64,000 bases of DNA from Blastococcus sp. TF02A-30. GTDB taxonomy: Bacteria > Actinomycetota > Actinomycetes > Mycobacteriales > Geodermatophilaceae. The DNA is taken from NCBI RefSeq assembly GCF_003319185.1, contig NZ_QOHJ01000002.1:434001-498000 (forward strand). The letters run 5' to 3'. Shown one piece after another: positions 2,222 through 9,967 of the stretch. Position numbers and translations under genes: made by a program. Under the pieces are notes generated by a model. It was not told the DNA's origin, did not search any database, and saw nothing but the letters and a program-made list of their open reading frames with translations. Numbering within the stretch: the stretch's first letter is position 1; each line of letters begins with the position of its first letter.

Positions 2222-3283
2222 TCATGCGGCGTTGATGGACGCGCGCCGGCGGGAGACCGTGCGCTTGGTCGTGGCGAGCTGTTGGGCGATGTCACGGATG
2301 GACTTGCCGCGTTCGGTGAGGCGCCGGACGACTTCGTCCTGCTCAGCAACGGTGAGGTGTTCGAGGCGGACGCCGTCGCCGGCGAGAGCACGCTCGACGG
2401 CGATCTCGTCGATGTCCTCGATCGTCACTGCGTGCTCAATGTGCTGGGGCTCGGGGTCGGTGTCGATGTCGTCCCAGGCCAGCGGCGGCAGCCAGCCGCG
2501 TTCCGCGGCGAAGGCCCGGGCGGCGTCTGCGGCGGCGCGCTGCTCGTCAGTGGACAACGGTGGGCGCAGGCCCCACAGCTTGTCGTAGAGGGCACTGACG
2601 TCCTGCGCGGTCTGCGAGGTGACGGAGTCGCTGAGCATGCTGCGTCGGAGGCTGGCCGAGCCTCGACCGAGCCTGGCGGCCAGCTCGTCGTGGGGCCATC
2701 CGACGGCGATCAGGGCCTGCAGCCGGCGACGAGTGCCCGTGGCCTCGACGTGACTGCGCGGCGCCCGGTTGGCCTGGTCGATCCCGATGCGCAAGAGCCG
2801 CTGGGCTGTCTCGGGCCGGACCCGCCGGATGCCTGGGTTGCCGTGGCGTTCGGGGGCGGCCAGCTCGCGGACGTGGCTGGTGGAGATGCCGGCGAGCACG
2901 GCGATCTGTTCGACGCCGATGCCGGCGGCGCGTAGCTCACGGATGTGCTTCCGCACCGGGGCGGCGTCGACGAACGGCCGCCATCGGCCGAAGGTCTGCG
3001 CACGGTGCACGGCACGGCCGGTCGCGGTGTTGGCGGCAGTGCAGTCGGTGCATCGGCAGCGGTCCTTCACGTAGGCGACGCGGGTTCCGTGCACGTGCCG
3101 AGCACGCGGATGAGTGCAGTCCCGCCTCACCCGACCCTGAGCAAGGCGGACACGGCGACGTGCCCGCTCGATGGCCTGCCGATGCTTGGCGCAGGAATGG
3201 CGCGGGTGGTGGACGTCGGCGAGGGCGTCGCTGGCGTACCTGCCGGTGTAGCCGCAGGCCGGGCAGGTGCGGGTGGCGCTCAC
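2222..3283 (-). CDS. Putative zinc-ribbon / helix-turn-helix protein of mobile-element type
   Basis: A 353-residue protein of unknown function. The N-terminus has CPACGYTGRY then HHPRHSC, a probable zinc site. A second cluster (CTHPRARHVHG ... CRCTDC) follows within the first third. Residues of the middle part contain at least two HTH-like segments (GIGVEQIAVLAGISTSHVREL and a GWPHDELAARLGR segment). A GWLPPLAWDDID block and a final HTH-like segment (KSIRDIAQQLATTKRTVSRRR) are at the C-terminus. Proteins with the CxC-xx-C plus GW-PLAWDD architecture are common in actinobacterial phages and integrative elements (recalled, not searched). The GTG start overlaps the preceding stop as GTGA, coupling it to the gene at 3280-3675. 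Confidence 0.72.
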   Translation of the reverse strand: MSATRTCPACGYTGRYASDALADVHHPRHSCAKHRQAIERARRRVRLAQGRVRRDCTHPRARHVHGTRVAYVKDRCRCTDCTAANTATGRAVHRAQTFGRWRPFVDAAPVRKHIRELRAAGIGVEQIAVLAGISTSHVRELAAPERHGNPGIRRVRPETAQRLLRIGIDQANRAPRSHVEATGTRRRLQALIAVGWPHDELAARLGRGSASLRRSMLSDSVTSQTAQDVSALYDKLWGLRPPLSTDEQRAAADAARAFAAERGWLPPLAWDDIDTDPEPQHIEHAVTIEDIDEIAVERALAGDGVRLEHLTVAEQDEVVRRLTERGKSIRDIAQQLATTKRTVSRRRASINAA

Positions 3284-3675
3284 GACGTGCCCTGGCCGGA
3301 GGCGGCGATGGGCTGTCGGACGTCGATGTGGCCGCGACCGGGCACGCCGGCTCTGGCAAGGATGTCCTCGATCCAGTCTGTGCGGAGGCTGTCGGCATCT
3401 CCGACGTGGTCGTCGAAGGACATGGCCGTGAACTGCTGGGCGGTGTCGGCCCACTCCCGGTCGGACAGGGGCCGCTCGAGGTGGGCCTCGACGGTGGGCC
3501 GGTCGACGTAGGCGATGCTGGCGCCCAGGACGTCGGCGAGGTCTGTGAGCAGCCGGTGGGTGTCGCCGCCGTAGCAGTCGACGAGGTCCTGCAGTTCGCC
3601 GCGGTAAGCAGCAGGCACGTGGGAGGTTGCCGGCGCACGGGCTGCCGTCGTCCGACGTCCCCGCTGGCCGCACAT
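3280..3675 (-). CDS. Hypothetical protein, mobile-element associated
   Basis: A 131-residue soluble protein that I do not recognise. It starts at ATG 3675 after GGGAGCAGGG. Visible features are a basic N-terminus, an amphipathic helical middle (YRGELQDLVDCYGG ... LLTDLADVLG) and an acidic block LSDREWADTAQQFTAMSFDDH. It is coupled by GTGA to the downstream zinc/HTH protein, so the two probably act together. The conserved element at 3712-3754 lies 36 nt upstream of the start and is probably part of its promoter or control region. Confidence 0.62.
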   Translation of the reverse strand: MCGQRGRRTTAARAPATSHVPAAYRGELQDLVDCYGGDTHRLLTDLADVLGASIAYVDRPTVEAHLERPLSDREWADTAQQFTAMSFDDHVGDADSLRTDWIEDILARAGVPGRGHIDVRQPIAASGQGTS

Positions 3676-3711: not shown

Positions 3712-3754
3712 AGAAGGCGCTATTTCGAGCTCTTTGGTGACACCCCGCCAAGAA
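3712..3754 (-). promoter_or_regulatory. Bipartite conserved element, left copy
   Basis: Read on the minus strand, this is TTCT-N8-TGTCACCAA-N13-GCGCCTTCT, followed 5 nt later by TGA. The same blocks with identical spacing occur at 7524-7566 on the plus strand. Each copy points outward and lies upstream of a small unknown gene (start at 3675 here). A shared promoter/operator is the simplest reading; inverted ends of a mobile unit are an alternative. Confidence 0.5.
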
Positions 3755-3972
3755 TCCGAACGAGGCGGTGCTCGACCAGATCCGCCACGAAACTGCGGTC
3801 ACGGTGAGCCGGTCGTTGGGCTGGCGTGGCCGCACCCGAGGTGGTCTGCGATCCGGGGGGAAGGGCAGCGGTCGTCGAGTCGGGCTGCGACGGCTTCGCA
3901 CCGCTGGTGTTGCTCGCGGGGAGCAGGCGATGACGGCCGGCGGGAGCGTGAGGGTGCGGTCGTCCGGGAGGG
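3755..3972. other. Intergenic stretch without a recognised gene
   Basis: Between the outward-facing conserved element and the end of the TauE-family gene I see no supported gene, tRNA or strong terminator. Open frames here are antisense shadows without ribosome-binding sites. Confidence 0.5.
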
Positions 3973-4749
3973 TCAAGCGAACAGGTCGACGGTCAGCTGG
4001 GTTGCGATGAGACCGGCGACGGTGAGTACCAACCAGGCGAACCAGCGGCGCAGTCGGTCCGTAGGGATGCGTGCGCCGACCCGTCCGGTCACCAGGGCAG
4101 CCACGACGGCCGCGCCGGTGAAGGTCAGAGTGACCGGTACGTCGAGAGTTGCCTCTCCGGCGTGCGCGGCGAAGCCGGCGGCGGAGTTGACGGCGACGAT
4201 GACCAGGGATGTGCCGATGGCGGTGGGCATCGGCAGGCCCAGGGCCAGCACGAGTACCGGGATGATCAGGAAGCCACCACCCACACCGAGCAGGCCGGTG
4301 AGGAAGCCGACCACGAGTCCGCCGGCCAGCGTGCGTGGCAGGCAGCGGCGCCAGTTCACCCCGCCGCCGTCCACAGCGCACGCGGTGCCGGTTGCAGGCT
4401 TCTCCTGCAGCATTCGGATCCCGGCGCCGACCATCACCACCGCGAACAGGGCCAGGGTCAGCTCGTCGGGCAGCACTCGGTTGACCGCAGCCCCGGCGAA
4501 CGCGGTGGCCGCTCCCGCCACGCCGAACAGCAGCCCGATCCGCCAGCTGATCTGCCGTTCTCGCAGCCGGGGGAGCACCGCCACGACCGCGGTGATGCCG
4601 ACCACCAGGAGCGAGGTGGCGACCGCCTGCTGCAGGTCCTGGCCCGCGAGGTAGACCAGCGCCGGCACCGCGAGGATCGAGCCACCTCCGCCCAGCAGCC
4701 CGACGAGAGCGCCGATGACGAGGCCGATGGCGATCGCGAGGGCGATCAT
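3973..4749 (-). CDS. TauE/SafE-family sulfite/organosulfur anion exporter
   Basis: A 258-residue integral membrane protein with about eight hydrophobic segments in two repeated halves. Each half opens with the family glycine motif ([17 protein letters not shown] at about 13-29 and [19 protein letters not shown] at about 152-170). The family moves sulfite, sulfoacetate or related anions across the membrane. Position at the end of a rhodanese / persulfide-dioxygenase cluster, 31 nt after the small Cys protein, indicates export of sulfite or thiosulfate made during sulfide or persulfide detoxification. tauE is likewise part of the Staphylococcus aureus cst locus. Confidence 0.9.
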
Positions 4750-4780
4750 CGGGCTGCTGCTGCCGCGGTGGTGGTTGACA

Positions 4781-4948
4781 TCAGCGGCGGCCGAAGAGCT
4801 TGCTCAGCCAGCTTCCGGACCGCTCGGGGCGGGGGTGGCCGGGGCAGCGCTGTGCGCTGGGGATGCGGGCCATGACCTGGTCGATGTGCTGGCCGCATCC
4901 GGCCCACGTCGTCTTGCCGCAGGTCTTGCAGGGAACTGCTCGACACAC
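4781..4948 (-). CDS. 55-residue Cys/His-rich small protein of the sulfur cluster
   Basis: A short gene with a good ribosome site (GAGGAG, 9 nt before GTG 4948). The product has C2, C7, C10, C18 and C35 with H21 and H38, arranged CxxC-x7-CGQH ... CPGH, and a basic C-terminal tail ending KLFGRR. The spacing suggests a small zinc ribbon or a thiol-reactive persulfide carrier; neither is demonstrated. It lies between the persulfide dioxygenase-rhodanese gene (37 nt) and the TauE gene (31 nt) on the same strand. Similar short proteins occur beside rhodanese/MBL genes in other actinobacteria as far as I recall. Confidence 0.75.
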   Translation of the reverse strand: MCRAVPCKTCGKTTWAGCGQHIDQVMARIPSAQRCPGHPRPERSGSWLSKLFGRR

Positions 4949-4985
4949 GGTTGGTCTCCTCGTAGTCGGTGGGACGGCCGGCAGG

Positions 4986-6371
4986 TCAGCGGGAGACGGA
5001 GTCGGTGTGCAGGCCGGCGGCGGCCGCACCGGTGTCGGGATCGCCGTAGCCGCCGTTGACCAGCACGGGCCGGCCACCGGCGCGGGCGAGCATCGAGGCG
5101 GCGATGGAGGCGCGGTAGCCCGAGCCGCAGTACACCCAGACGTCGCCGTCGGGAACCTCGTCGAGGCGGCCGGGCAGGTCGTGGATCGGGATGTGCAGCG
5201 AGCCCTGCACCCCGCCTCCGGCGCGCTCGTCGTCGCGGCGGGCGTCGAGGACGACGAGGTCGGGGTCGGTGTCCATCGCCGCGGCGAGTCCGGCGAAGTC
5301 GCTGACCGGGTAGGCGGCCAGCTCCTGGCCGGTGGACAGCTGATCGGGGCTGCCGACCGCGGCACCGGCGAGCCGGTCGATGCCGATGCGGACCAGCTCG
5401 CGGCGGGCGTCAGCCACCTGCTCCTCGTTCTCCCCGATCAGGGTGATCGGGGCGCCCCACGGGATGAGCCAGCCGACGTAGGTGACGAAGTTGGCGATGG
5501 CCAGCTCGAAGTTCAGCGCCCCGGGCAGGTGTCCGGCGGCGAAGGCGGTGCGGGTGCGCAGGTCGATGACCCACTCGCCGGCCGCCAGCCGGCCGGCCAG
5601 CTCCTCGGGGTCGACCAGCCGCGGCATCGACAGATCCACCGGCGCCGGGCCTGCGGCGTTGCCCGGGCTCATGCGCCCGTACCAGGCCGGGATCGCGGTG
5701 AGGCCGGCGATCAGCTCGTTGACGAAGGAGCGCTCGTCCTGCGTCAGCGCCGGGTTCACCGTCACCTGCTCGCCGACCGTGGAGGAGTCGCCGCTGGTCG
5801 GGGTGGCCGAGCAGAACGAGCCGAAGCCGTGGGTGGGGAACACCGGGGTGCCGGCCGGCAGCTCGTCGGCCAGTCGGCGCACCGAGTGGTACTGGGCGTG
5901 GGTGAGCTCGTCGGTGTGCTCGGGACCGACCAGGTCCGTGCGGCCGGTCGAGCCGTAGAGCATGGAGCCCCCGGTGAACACCGCCTGCACGTCGCCGCCG
6001 GCGTCGGCGTCGGTGAGCACGTAGCTGACGTGGTGGTGGGTGTGCCCCGGGGTGTGCAGGACCCGGAGGCGCATGGGGCCCGCTTCGAGCACGTCGCCGT
6101 CGGCGGCCGGCACCCGCTTGTAGGCGACGGAGTCACCGGCGGGGACGACGTAGTCGGCGCCCACCTGGCCGGAGAGTTCGAGCCCGCCGGTCAGGTAGTC
6201 GTTGTGCAGGTGGGTCTCCAGGACCAGCGCGATGCGCACGGCCCGCTTCTCGGCGAGGGCCAGCACCCGGTCGATGTCGCGCTGGGGATCGACGACGACG
6301 CCCACCCCGCTGTCGCTGACCAGGTAGCTGCGGTCGCCGAGTCCGGTGGTCTCGATGATGTCGATCTGCAC
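4986..6371 (-). CDS. CstB-like persulfide dioxygenase-rhodanese fusion
   Basis: A 461-residue fusion. Residues 1 to about 250 are a metallo-beta-lactamase-fold persulfide dioxygenase (ETHLHNDY with H54, H56 and D58; TPGHTHHH; PTHGFGSFC). A first rhodanese fold at about 255-345 (IDLRTRTAFAAGHLPGA) has no catalytic Cys. The second rhodanese at about 365-458 carries active-site C415 in CGSGYRAS. This domain order (PDO, pseudo-rhodanese, active rhodanese) and length match S. aureus CstB, which turns low-molecular-weight persulfides into thiosulfate. GTG 6371 is preceded by AAGGAG. A possible internal promoter (TTGCTT-N18-TACCGT) lies just upstream at 6387-6416. Cytoplasmic; no signal peptide. Confidence 0.9.
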   Translation of the reverse strand: MQIDIIETTGLGDRSYLVSDSGVGVVVDPQRDIDRVLALAEKRAVRIALVLETHLHNDYLTGGLELSGQVGADYVVPAGDSVAYKRVPAADGDVLEAGPMRLRVLHTPGHTHHHVSYVLTDADAGGDVQAVFTGGSMLYGSTGRTDLVGPEHTDELTHAQYHSVRRLADELPAGTPVFPTHGFGSFCSATPTSGDSSTVGEQVTVNPALTQDERSFVNELIAGLTAIPAWYGRMSPGNAAGPAPVDLSMPRLVDPEELAGRLAAGEWVIDLRTRTAFAAGHLPGALNFELAIANFVTYVGWLIPWGAPITLIGENEEQVADARRELVRIGIDRLAGAAVGSPDQLSTGQELAAYPVSDFAGLAAAMDTDPDLVVLDARRDDERAGGGVQGSLHIPIHDLPGRLDEVPDGDVWVYCGSGYRASIAASMLARAGGRPVLVNGGYGDPDTGAAAAGLHTDSVSR

Positions 6372-6429
6372 GGAAGCTCCTTAGTACGGTACGGGGCAGG
6401 GGTATCAATCAAGCAAATGCTGAGCGTTG

Positions 6430-6735
6430 TCAGACGGTCGGACGACCTTCGGCGATCCACTGAGTCATGCCGCCGTCGAGGTTGGCCACGTCGTAGCCCT
6501 GTCCGGCGAGAAACTGTGCGGCTTGCGAGCTGCGCCCGCCACTGCGGCACACGGTGATGACCGGACGGGCGCGGTCGAGCTCGAAGGCGCGCGCGGACAG
6601 CTGGCCCAGCGGGATGTGGGTGCTGCCGGCGATCCGTCCTTCGGTGAGTTCGGCGGCTTCGCGGACGTCGAGGACGACGGCCTCGGTGCGGTCGGCGGCC
6701 TGGGCAGGGGTGAGCTGGGGGATCTGCGGGTTCAT
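6430..6735 (-). CDS. Single-domain rhodanese sulfurtransferase
   Basis: A 101-residue GlpE/PspE-sized rhodanese. It has LDVREAAELTEGRIAGSTHIP (family CH2A-like start) and the active-site loop CRSGGRS with C63 as the persulfide-carrying cysteine, then NLDGGMTQW. It transfers sulfane sulfur, here probably between low-molecular-weight persulfides and the neighbouring dioxygenase-rhodanese, a role comparable to CstA. No TusA domain is fused, unlike staphylococcal CstA. It follows the CstR-like repressor by 21 nt and is presumably co-transcribed with it. The ribosome site before ATG 6735 is weak. Confidence 0.92.
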   Translation of the reverse strand: MNPQIPQLTPAQAADRTEAVVLDVREAAELTEGRIAGSTHIPLGQLSARAFELDRARPVITVCRSGGRSSQAAQFLAGQGYDVANLDGGMTQWIAEGRPTV

Positions 6736-6756
6736 GGGAGCTTCAAGGGGTGACGG

Positions 6757-7023
6757 TCAGGCGAGGGAGAGGAGCAGGCGCTCGAGCTCGCGCAGGTCGA
6801 CCTCGCGGGTCTCGCCGTCCTCGTTGGTCGAGCAGTAGCGCATCCCGGTCGAGACGACGGCGAAGCCGGCCTTGCTCAGAGCCTTGGATGCGGCGGCAAG
6901 TTGGGTGACGACGGCCGAGCAGTCCCGCCCGTCCTCGATCATGCGGACGATGCCGCCGATCTGGCCTTCGATGCGCTTGAGCCGCTTGACGACGTCGGCG
7001 AGTTCGCCCTGGGGGATGTCCAC
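6757..7023 (-). CDS. CsoR-family repressor of persulfide-sensing (CstR) type
   Basis: An 88-residue all-helical DUF156 repressor, starting RLKRIEGQIGGIVRMIEDGRD. The two sensing cysteines, C35 and C64, are 29 residues apart as in CsoR and CstR. Copper-sensing CsoR has a His four residues before the second Cys; here it is Gly60. Loss of that His with both Cys kept is the CstR signature, so this protein should sense per- or polysulfides by Cys-Cys crosslinking rather than copper. I chose GTG 7023 because the alternative ATG 7038 lies inside the perfect operator palindrome 7037-7052. The gene heads the sulfur cluster and probably represses it. Confidence 0.85.
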   Translation of the reverse strand: MDIPQGELADVVKRLKRIEGQIGGIVRMIEDGRDCSAVVTQLAAASKALSKAGFAVVSTGMRYCSTNEDGETREVDLRELERLLLSLA

Positions 7024-7036
7024 GGCTTCACCGTAC

Positions 7037-7052
7037 ATACCCCCGGGGGTAT
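7037..7052. promoter_or_regulatory. CsoR/CstR operator: perfect 16-bp G/C-tract palindrome
   Basis: ATACCCCCGGGGGTAT is a perfect inverted repeat 14 nt upstream of the chosen repressor start. TA-flanked runs of C and G are the known operator type of CsoR/CstR proteins. It most likely mediates autoregulation of the repressor and control of the downstream rhodanese, dioxygenase, small Cys protein and exporter genes. A degenerate half (GGGGTAT, 6399-6405) lies upstream of the dioxygenase gene. Confidence 0.8.
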
Positions 7053-7523
7053 CGGCCATGCGATTCCGCGGTGACCCGGACCACGCCAGCCAGGTCGCCC
7101 GTGCGGCCCTGCAGCCCCGCCGCTGAAAGGTCGTGAGCGGTGAACGTTGCTGAGACGGGCGCGGAGGCACTCTTCAGGCACCCAATACTCTCGCGATCCG
7201 CTCCGCGAGCCGTCACAGCCAACGCTCCACCTTGACTCTGACCTGGTGTTCAGCGCTGTCCAACACAGCTCAACGGTCCAAGATCAAATCGATGGATGAT
7301 TGATCCGAGCAGCAACAGGGTGGCAACTCAGCCCGACGTCGGCGCCCAACTCTCACAAGCGAAGTGCTCGCTCGCTACGGGGACCGTTGGCGTCCCCCCG
7401 GGAGCCTGCAGTGGTGTCACCGCTCACCCCGCGACGCACCTTCACGAACGGACGATGTCACCCGTACGCATCGCTTGTCCGAGCAGCGTCACCCCCGGAC
7501 TTTCAGTGTTGGCTGATCGGCGG
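7053..7523. other. 470-bp gap with no supported gene
   Basis: Base composition is visibly less GC-rich than the flanks (runs such as AAGATCAAATCGATGG). Open frames lack ribosome sites and family features. It presumably holds the promoter of the CstR-like gene on its left edge. No tRNA, terminator or repeat was recognised inside. Confidence 0.5.
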
Positions 7524-7566
7524 TTCTACCGCGGCTGTCACCAAGCCGCCCAATTCGGCGCCTTCT
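7524..7566 (+). promoter_or_regulatory. Bipartite conserved element, right copy
   Basis: TTCT-N8-TGTCACCAA-N13-GCGCCTTCT, identical in block sequence and spacing to the inverted copy at 3712-3754. It lies 52 nt before the ATG of the small gene at 7619. Its right edge overlaps a 10-bp palindrome (CTTCTAGAAG, 7562-7571). Between the two copies lies the whole sulfur cluster. Confidence 0.5.
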
Positions 7567-7618
7567 AGAAGTGACCCGTCGCCTGCCGAGGCGGCGGGCG
7601 CAGCTCTCCGGAGGAGCC

Positions 7619-7924
7619 ATGAGCGAGCCTGCCCTTGAGCCGAACCCGGCATCCGGCGACAGCCGGGCACGGGACCGTGCCGTAATCGCCCGCATCGCGG
7701 CCGCCGAGCGGTGGGCACGGACGTCTGACCGAGCGGCGGCGACCGAGCCGGCCCGGCGCGGACTGCGGGCACGGTTCGAGCGGGAGGCCGACCCCGACGG
7801 CGTCCTCGACGCCGCGGAGCGTGCTCGCCGGGGCCATGCCCTCATGACCGCGCACATGCTGCGTCTGGCCCGGGCGTCGGCGCAGGCCCGCCGGACAGCT
7901 GCCGGACGCGGCCGGCGTCACTAG
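7619..7924 (+). CDS. Small conserved Ala/Arg-rich protein
   Basis: A 101-residue soluble, helical protein with the block [20 protein letters not shown] followed by [17 protein letters not shown] and two further helices ending in a basic tail. I recall this block from many actinobacterial hypothetical proteins, often in variable regions, but know no function. ATG 7619 follows GGAGGAGCC, a strong ribosome site; the frame is open upstream to 7571 but that start has none. Its TAG stop overlaps the integrase stop on the other strand in the tetranucleotide CTAG (7921-7924). Confidence 0.75.
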
Positions 7925-8844
7925 AGCTGGTCGCCCAGCGCCAGTCGGCGGTGCGCACTGTGCGCGCGCTCGACGGCGGTCGAGGCGGCATAGCGGGACA
8001 GCATCTCGTCGCTGCGCCACCCGGCCAGCATCATCAGGTCCCGCTCCTGCCCGCCGCCGACGAGCCAGCGGTGGGCGAAGGTGTGCCGGAACCGGTGTGG
8101 ATGCACCCCCTCGACGCCTGCCTGCCGGCTGCGCACCTCGAGCACCTCGCGGACCCCGTCGACGGTCATGGGCCCGCGCAACCCGAGTAGCAGCTTCGGT
8201 GAGCTCGCCCGCGCATGCAGCGCGCGCACCCGCAGATAGCGGTCGATCGCCTGGCCCGTCCTGGCGCCGAACGGCACCGCGCGCGGCCGCGAGCCCTTCC
8301 CCATGACATAGGCGACCTCGCGGTCCAGGTCGACGTCCTCGAGGGTCAGCCCGCACAGTTCGGACACCCGGACGCCGGTGTCCAGCAGCAACCGCAGGAT
8401 CACCTCGTCACGTCGGCCGAAGAAGATTGGGCGAGCGAACGTCCCGGGACGACCCCGGCCGACGGCGCAGGTCTTGAGCAGGGCCGTGATGTCAGCGTCG
8501 GTGAGGATCGGCACGGGCTTGTCCGGGGCGGTGGCGATCTCGATGCCCTCGGTGGGCGCCTTGTCCACCTCTCCCTCGACGACGAGCCACCGGCAGAAGC
8601 GGCGCATGCCCCGCAGCCGGGTGGCCACGGTGCTGGGCTGACAGGTCTCGGCGAGCTCGGCCAGCCAGGCGCTGATCGCGTGCCGCGTCAGCTCGTCGAG
8701 GGTCTCCGGCCGGTCGTGCGCGGCCAGCCAACGGCTGAAGTAGTTGACGCTCTGGCTGTACAGCTCGATCGTCCGCGGTGCCTTACTGGCCGCGCGCAGG
8801 TGTCGACGAAAGGACGCAAGAAGGTCTTCCAGCCGCACCGCCAT
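7921..8844 (-). CDS. Tyrosine recombinase / integrase (XerC/XerD type)
   Basis: A 307-residue recombinase. It has an N-terminal SAM-like DNA-binding domain (residues about 1-95, [17 protein letters not shown]) and a C-terminal catalytic domain. The catalytic set is complete: R159 ([12 protein letters not shown]), K183 ([10 protein letters not shown]), H250 and R253 (HRFRH), W276 in the His/Trp position (GWRSDE) and nucleophile Y285 (RYAAS). Size matches Xer/simple integrases rather than large ICE integrases. No tRNA or obvious direct att repeats were seen beside it. It converges on the small gene at 7619 and marks the right edge of the accessory region. Confidence 0.93.
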
Positions 8845-8893: not shown

Positions 8894-9967
8894 TCAGTCG
8901 CCGGTATCTTCGCTGGTAGGACGCTTGGCACGGCTCGGTTGCACCCGCATCGGCTCGCCCGGCATCTTCGGGTAGTCCGGCGGATAGGGCAGGTCGCCGA
9001 GGCCGTCGTCCGCCGCCTGGCGCTCGGCCAGCTCGAGCAGCGGCTCGATGCCGAAGGCGTGGTCGGCCAGGCCGGCGTGCTTGTCGCCGACGGCCGCGAA
9101 CCGGGCCGGCATGGTGAGGACGTCGAAGTCGAACGGCGAGACGTCGGGCAGCTCGTCCCAGTCGACCGGCGCGGAGACCGGCGCGTGCGGCTTGGGCCGG
9201 ATGGAGTAGGCCGAGGCGATCGTGCGGTCCCGGGCCATCTGGTTGTAGTCGATGAAGATCTTCTCGCCGCGCTCCTCCTTCCACCACGACATCGTCACGC
9301 GGTCGGGGAGGCGTCGTTCGAGCTCACGGCCGAAGGCGATCACCGCCCGGCGGACGTCGGTGAAGGTCCAGCGGGGCTGGATGGGGACGTAGATGTGCAC
9401 CCCGCGGCCGCCGGAGGTCTTCGGCCAGCCCTCCATGCCGAACTCGTGCAGCAGCTCCCGCACGTGCGGGGCCACCCACACCGCGTCGGCGAAGTCGGTG
9501 CCGGGCTGCGGGTCGAGGTCGATGCGGATCTGGTTGGGCTGCTCGACGTCGGCCTTGTCCACCGGCCACGGGTGGAAGGTCAGCGTGCCCAGGTTGGCGC
9601 ACCACGCGACGACCGCCACCGAGTCGGGCGCGATCTCGTCCGCGGTCCGCCCGCTGGGGAAGGTGATGTGCGCCGTCGGCACCCAGTCGGGGGCGTTCTT
9701 GGGCACCCGCTTCTGGTAGAACGCGTCGCCGGTGTTGTCCACGCGGGTGGAGATCCGCGCCCCCTCGAACACCCCGCCGGGCCAGCGCTCCAGCGTCGTC
9801 GGCCGGTCCTTCAGGGCGAACAGGATCCCCTCACCGACGGCCACGAAGTACTCGACGACGTCGATCTTGCGGATGCCCTTCTCGGCGAAGTACGGCTTCT
9901 CCGGGTTGGAGACGCGCACCTCGTGGCCGTCGATCTGCAGGACGACGGCGTCCTTGCTGCTCGGCAT
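8894..9967 (-). CDS. PrimPolC-like DNA repair polymerase (LigD polymerase-domain family)
   Basis: A 357-residue stand-alone protein of the archaeo-eukaryotic primase superfamily, as in the polymerase domain of LigD. Visible motifs are the metal-binding RIDLDPQPGTDF, the template/nucleotide segment TSGGRGVHIYVPI, and IDYNQMARDRTIAS. Length and nearness to a LigC gene match M. tuberculosis Rv3730c / M. smegmatis Prim-PolC, which fills short gaps with ribonucleotides together with LigC in excision repair. It is third in a minus-strand trio after ligC and an S33 hydrolase. The ATG at 9967 begins MPSSKDAVVLQIDG; the longer open frame upstream is a shadow of the hydrolase gene. Confidence 0.9.
   Translation of the reverse strand: MPSSKDAVVLQIDGHEVRVSNPEKPYFAEKGIRKIDVVEYFVAVGEGILFALKDRPTTLERWPGGVFEGARISTRVDNTGDAFYQKRVPKNAPDWVPTAHITFPSGRTADEIAPDSVAVVAWCANLGTLTFHPWPVDKADVEQPNQIRIDLDPQPGTDFADAVWVAPHVRELLHEFGMEGWPKTSGGRGVHIYVPIQPRWTFTDVRRAVIAFGRELERRLPDRVTMSWWKEERGEKIFIDYNQMARDRTIASAYSIRPKPHAPVSAPVDWDELPDVSPFDFDVLTMPARFAAVGDKHAGLADHAFGIEPLLELAERQAADDGLGDLPYPPDYPKMPGEPMRVQPSRAKRPTSEDTGD

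Follow-up and report, generated by a model that had tools for sequence, protein, structure and literature searches.

A family-wide two-block element before mobile-element control genes of Geodermatophilaceae as a candidate core promoter

In a 64-kb window of the genome of Blastococcus sp. TF02A-30 (the whole stretch of 64,000 nucleotides that was analysed), a sulfur operon is bracketed by two outward-facing copies of a bipartite sequence, which raises the question of whether these copies are the ends of one mobile unit or control sites of the genes that they precede. The initial annotation had described the pair as sharing its block spacing while differing in its spacers, and this was confirmed. 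A pattern search for TGTCACCAA-N13-GCGCCTTCT with up to 3 mismatches allowed found exactly two matches in the window, at 3712-3742 on the minus strand and 7536-7566 on the plus strand, both with 0 mismatches, with unlike spacer sequences and oriented outward, against a mean of 0.02 matches in 100 shuffles of the window, none of which contained two. The features around the two copies are given below; XISA, XISB, XISC, MCGQ1/2, MCSR and SMALL are labels coined in the present analysis.

2222..3283, minus strand: 353-aa multi-HTH protein (MCGQ2) with conserved Cys/His clusters
3280..3675, minus strand: 131-aa gene (MCGQ1)
3712..3742, minus strand: motif copy A (core of 31 bp), the predicted promoter core for the 131-aa/353-aa pair, whose start codon follows after 36 nt
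3973..7170, minus strand: sulfur operon between copies A and B, comprising a TauE/SafE exporter, an MBL-rhodanese, a rhodanese and a CsoR-like repressor whose start codon position is uncertain
7165..7309, no strand: sequence resembling an attachment arm, with further occurrences upstream of the 131-aa/353-aa pair
7536..7566, plus strand: motif copy B (core of 31 bp), the predicted promoter core for the 101-aa gene, whose ATG follows after 52 nt
7619..7924, plus strand: 101-aa gene (SMALL)
7921..8844, minus strand: XerC/XerD-like tyrosine recombinase, convergent with SMALL and adjoining the 3′ end of a ligD-like gene
8894-9964: ligD-like gene, with its 3′ end beside the XerC-like recombinase

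The 131-aa protein MCGQ1 had no Pfam match at 0.1 and only weak NCBIfam and PHROGs matches. MCGQ2 (2222-3283) matched phrog_1590 of PHROGs at 7.5e-48 and has invariant Cys/His clusters and several predicted HTH regions; its structure model is of modest quality (mean pLDDT 71.5, pTM 0.35).

Among 60 related genomes, the exact pattern was found at 46 places in 19 genomes, of which 18 are among the 23 from the genus of the window, Blastococcus, and one is from another genus of Geodermatophilaceae; a reversed control pattern gave no match in the same 60 genomes. With up to 2 mismatches, 83 places were matched in 21 of the 23 genus genomes, again with 0 matches for the reversed control. A sequence-only motif model, built from 38 aligned of 65 40-mers, recovered 87 sites with E up to 0.004 in these 23 genomes, followed by noise-like partial matches, and found no strong site in two of them (G006 and G021). 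Of 112 Geodermatophilaceae genomes, 58 contain the form TGTCAC-N16-GCGCCTTCT (control 0); a class-wide sample of 394 genomes has it in only three, two from the genus of the window and one from outside the family. Because the reversed control also matched three times in that sample, once each in three genomes, the lone out-of-family match is no more than chance.

A scan of the genomes of 84,980 species matched 87 stretches, and 71 of the 80 that were listed belong to Geodermatophilaceae, namely Blastococcus, Geodermatophilus, Modestobacter, Trujillonella and a few MAGs or mislabelled records. The other listed stretches comprise two on one Subtercola MAG contig, one on a Streptosporangiaceae MAG and six dispersed over Verrucomicrobiota, Bacteroidota, cyanobacteria and Planctomycetes, a number close to the approximately 7.5 that we estimate, assuming uniform bases, for an 18-base pattern in that DNA. 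A gene of the families described below lies at most 330 nt behind 68 of the 80 listed stretches, including all three Subtercola and Streptosporangiaceae copies and none of the six dispersed ones. The Streptosporangiaceae copy precedes XISA. On the Subtercola contig (L231 and L268; GC 0.65-0.67) the motif occurs twice with XISB, by transfer to another family or by misbinning. Given the copies on these MAGs, either the factor that reads the motif is not confined to Geodermatophilaceae or the contigs are misbinned. No exact match was found in IMG/VR viral contigs, no description of the motif was among the papers listed in literature searches, and among the matches listed in a literature text search with TGTCACCAA all were unrelated.

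The fetched sites, which cover part of the family-wide site list, numbered 154 distinct ones after those with identical 80-nt context had been merged and those near locus ends omitted. At 144 of these the motif stands before one of four unrelated gene families, with first genes that cluster as XISA (81), the 131-aa gene (28), XISB (26), SMALL (6) and an extra gene before the 131-aa gene (3). The distance from motif to start codon, with starts chosen by script, is 32-91 nt in 143 of the 144 and 157 nt in one (L226); in the class of the 131-aa gene it is 33-37 nt at 27 of 28 sites. At seven of the ten other sites (L092, L224, L109, L037, L076, L106 and L115) we recognise the same genes in damaged, miscalled or truncated form, and behind the last three, L173 (G353), L194 (G068) and L196 (G076), there is no recognisable member of the four families; L173 is the out-of-family match of the class-wide sample. 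In related genomes the motif is tied to gene starts, and a scatter over random positions with no link to starts was not found.

The XISA protein and the XISB protein that were scanned both have matches to HTH_17 in Pfam and to phrog_66, an excisionase family of PHROGs. Across 24 loci examined, one tyrosine recombinase cluster occurred in at least 15, a second in at least 7 and a TrwC relaxase cluster in at least 7. All four families belong to integrative elements, which differ in their recombinases and sites, and the proposal in the initial annotation of a shared promoter or operator of mobile-element-type genes is supported by the 144 sites before them. The motif is a genuine cis-element, family-wide and highly specific, of the control genes of mobile elements. 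At one locus (L314:5679-10338), a tandem pair of long tyrosine recombinases, of which the first carries an ArdC-like N-terminal domain, is divergent from the excisionase-like gene behind the motif.

The reverse search led from gene to motif, using the 30 best-matching loci for each gene and allowing up to 4 mismatches of 18. The motif was upstream of XISA in 30 of the best 30 loci and upstream of the 131-aa/353-aa pair in 29 of the best 30, the exception (L126) being a contig start. Loci with a 353-aa homologue that is only 63-67% identical still have the motif upstream, with 0-4 mismatches. For SMALL, it stands directly before 10 of 30 homologues and, in one more, before an XISA gene upstream of SMALL; the remaining 19 lacked it by the strict test and are mostly but not only distant, two being 83-86% identical. 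Because the motif is absent at many of its loci, SMALL is often driven otherwise.

The persistence of the blocks before proteins that have diverged this far argues against a promoter cassette that is shuffled among elements, alike through shared ancestry and of little function by itself today. The elements do occur side by side in individual genomes, where DNA might pass between them, but flanks and spacers have diverged and the blocks have not, and we consider such shuffling improbable. More doubtful still is an arm-type binding site of a recombinase or excisionase, forming part of an attachment site. For it speak the location of the copies in integration modules and the additional CAGGAG/CYGGAG repeats just upstream of the motif in the two excisionase classes, XISA and XISB; however, the motif of the 131-aa class is fixed near the start codon but lies 0.28 to approximately 16 kb from the attachment-like arm, and modules with different recombinases have the motif in common. 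In our reading the repeats are a regulator site distinct from the motif, perhaps that of the excisionase itself.

The anatomy of the motif is rigid where the two blocks are concerned. When a gap of 9-21 nt was permitted between TGTCACC and GCGCCTTCT, 62 of 62 genus matches had exactly 15 nt, and a control with 16 instead of 15 nt before GCGCC had no match in the window's own genome. Both blocks are common to all four gene classes and the flanks differ; this sameness is partly by construction, as the blocks themselves, with at most 3 mismatches, were the basis for choosing sites, and the same holds in part for CGCC, which is present in nearly every site. The spacer is partly conserved, with a G-rich stretch at 12-13 and, in three of the four classes, GAAAT at 17-21 ahead of the second block, which is weak in the SMALL class and absent from window copy B. 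A loose GGTGA follows approximately 3 nt past the second block, that is, approximately 7 nt past CGCC, with one base of play. Beyond these elements the four classes have little in common. The TTCT-N8 extension, which had been included in the motif at first, is present in both window copies and in many copies of the 131-aa gene class but is not general, being missing from the two excisionase classes. Neither block is a repeat of the other, inverted or direct. Recurrence, spacing, asymmetry and the links to particular genes and to integrative elements are results of the computation itself.

Because the blocks are unlike, their distance is invariant, the orientation is single and the leader is short, the motif looks like a promoter, and because it stands almost only before small control genes of different chromosome-integrating elements, it is probably a shared one. 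With somewhat better than even confidence, we read it as a core promoter recognised by an alternative sigma factor that would drive integration-module genes of many unrelated elements in Geodermatophilaceae. The promoter identity, the type of sigma factor, the transcript start and the purpose are what we infer from the sequences. TGTCACC would be the −35 block and CGCC(TTCT) the −10 block, separated by a 16-nt spacer, and TGTCACC-n16-CGCC has the geometry of an ECF-type promoter. RNA polymerase with a non-housekeeping sigma factor, ECF-like in its geometry and apparently not ECF41, would read the motif, and the transcript would begin approximately 7-9 nt past CGCC, at the loosely kept GGTGA. 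The gene so driven would be the first of an integration/excision module, whether excisionase-like, SMALL or the MCGQ pair.

A match to housekeeping promoters is not apparent, as TTGACA/TATAAT-like hexamers of sigma-70 scored 6.55 of 12 at the 144 sites versus 6.62 in shuffled sequence. In SMALL, an in-frame GTG at 7571 coincides with the predicted transcript start. General leaderless translation from the conserved GTG is unsupported, because among sites having such a codon it is in frame with the chosen start in a minority of XISA (17 of 66), MCGQ (1 of 17) and XISB (5 of 17) sites; the count for SMALL is 4 of 6. An RNA element in the 5′ leader has next to no probability in our view: TCACC and GGTGA could pair, but the 38 aligned sites gave no consensus fold and no covariation beyond that of shuffles.

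The alternative that we take most seriously is an operator. One shared DNA-binding regulator, encoded by the host or, in trans, by a single element, would bind it and repress or activate the integration-module genes of many elements. The motif occurs almost only at mobile-element genes without a visible host regulon, and its conservation is stricter than promoters usually show, both of which would suit a regulator. On the other hand, two unlike blocks without symmetry and at invariant spacing are unlike a dimer site, and a separate promoter would then be needed, of which none stands out. Nor is any tested element gene common to all motif carriers: G003 and G016 gave no match for the 353-aa HTH gene, and G009 and G016 gave none for XISA, yet all three genomes have the motif. 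We regard an operator as rather unlikely.

For the promoter reading, the bimodal outcome of the model search, 87 strong sites and then noise, is odd if a host sigma factor is responsible, as it leaves no visible host regulon, and a sigma gene was not seen as the first gene behind any motif copy. It is possible, and we propose it only tentatively, that Geodermatophilaceae have a dedicated factor, a sigma factor or its equivalent, that targets almost only excision-control genes and acts as one master switch of the mobilome.

The same data bear on the outward pair in the window. Only 12 of the 154 fetched sites, in six genomes, form outward pairs. All of these join the two units seen in the window, and the distance between the copies is approximately 0.17 kb in G008 and G012, 0.4 kb in G060, 1.6 kb in G078, 3.8 kb in the window, where it holds the sulfur operon, and 16.5 kb in G022. 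The copies keep a fixed distance to the start codon and not to an element end. Because the DNA between paired copies is variable, the bracket represents two neighbouring units and not the termini of a single one. The outward pair consists of back-to-back transcription units, which in the window are two putative promoter-driven units around the sulfur operon. That the copies are terminal binding sites of one mobile unit with this operon as cargo, as had been considered, is extremely improbable. Its attraction is that the operon lies between two outward copies in G022 too, but the six pairs enclose unlike DNA of 0.17 to 16.5 kb, and G018 and G002 have the operon with only one motif copy nearby. 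In G002 (L106:9990-10020) the motif is kept beside the sulfur operon and the 131-aa gene behind it is truncated, its frame continuing into a membrane-protein-like stretch.

The suspicion that the operon sits in mobile DNA was nevertheless right, the attachment-like sequence being a separate one at 7165-7309. At 14 other loci it also lies upstream of the 131-aa/353-aa unit, 0.28 to approximately 16 kb away, and at 12 of the 13 other loci listed the 3′ half of tRNA-Asn directly adjoins it. This tRNA half is absent beside it in G078 and likewise in the window, for which ARAGORN reported no complete tRNA in the entire 64 kb; the program identified an intact tRNA-Asn gene elsewhere in the window's genome. 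In the window, G018 and G022 the operon lies between the attachment-like sequence and the 131-aa/353-aa unit. The sulfur operon thus lies in mobile surroundings, among element remnants. On the other side, the XerC-like recombinase, the 101-aa gene or both also occur beside the ligD-like gene, or beside short pieces of its end, in other genomes of the family, and this recurrence suggests the 3′ end of that gene as a candidate integration site. A second copy of this 3′ end, such as might lie at the far border of the recombinase element, was looked for in the window without success. A related recombinase is located beside tRNA-Met in L096, L100, L101 and L328.

In these genomes the motif can serve as a highly specific tag with which to locate integrative elements as well as their degraded remnants. 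If one factor reads it, the excision of many different elements in Geodermatophilaceae would be coordinated by a single cue; a shared promoter would probably let unrelated elements, with different recombinases and sites, obey that one cue.

Actinomycete integrative elements of the pSAM2 type carry xis-int modules, and the elements described here resemble them in that an HTH_17 excisionase-like gene adjoins a tyrosine integrase, with a TrwC relaxase in some. We know of no such shared promoter motif in pSAM2-like elements.

Among known sigma factors, ECF41 is an obvious candidate by sequence. A match to TIGR02957, which we take to stand for ECF41, was present at E ≤ 1e-20 in 11 of 12 genomes searched, and G008 had none despite its 13 strong motif sites. 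The ECF41 promoter is published as TGTCACA-n16(±1)-CGTC (PMC3426412); the −35 block TGTCACC of our motif shares 6 of 7 bases with TGTCACA, and the spacer length of 16 is the same, whereas the −10 block is CGCC(TTCT) here and CGTC there. The form TGTCACA-N16-CGTC was found in 7 of 19 fetched TIGR02957 loci of the genus, in five of them 18-38 nt ahead of a 183-190-aa gene with the sigma gene directly behind it, as in the published ECF41 arrangement (PMC3426412). Because these 7 of 19 loci carry the canonical form and the motif-rich G008 has no TIGR02957 match, ECF41 is disfavoured as the reading factor.

The closest precedent is found in staphylococcal prophages, which share a conserved int promoter of approximately 40 bp that is driven by the host sigma-H (PMC2869324). 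There, too, a conserved block precedes a recombination gene in nearly all compared prophages of one host group, as our motif precedes recombination-module genes of many elements in one host group, and no housekeeping promoter was recognised at the int promoter (PMC2869324). Our motif differs in sequence and host and is described here from sequence; its genes are excisionase-like or uncharacterised and not int, and it is shared by several unrelated types of element. As the staphylococcal case shows, it is possible for a conserved promoter to be driven in many different prophages by a sigma factor of the host (PMC2869324).
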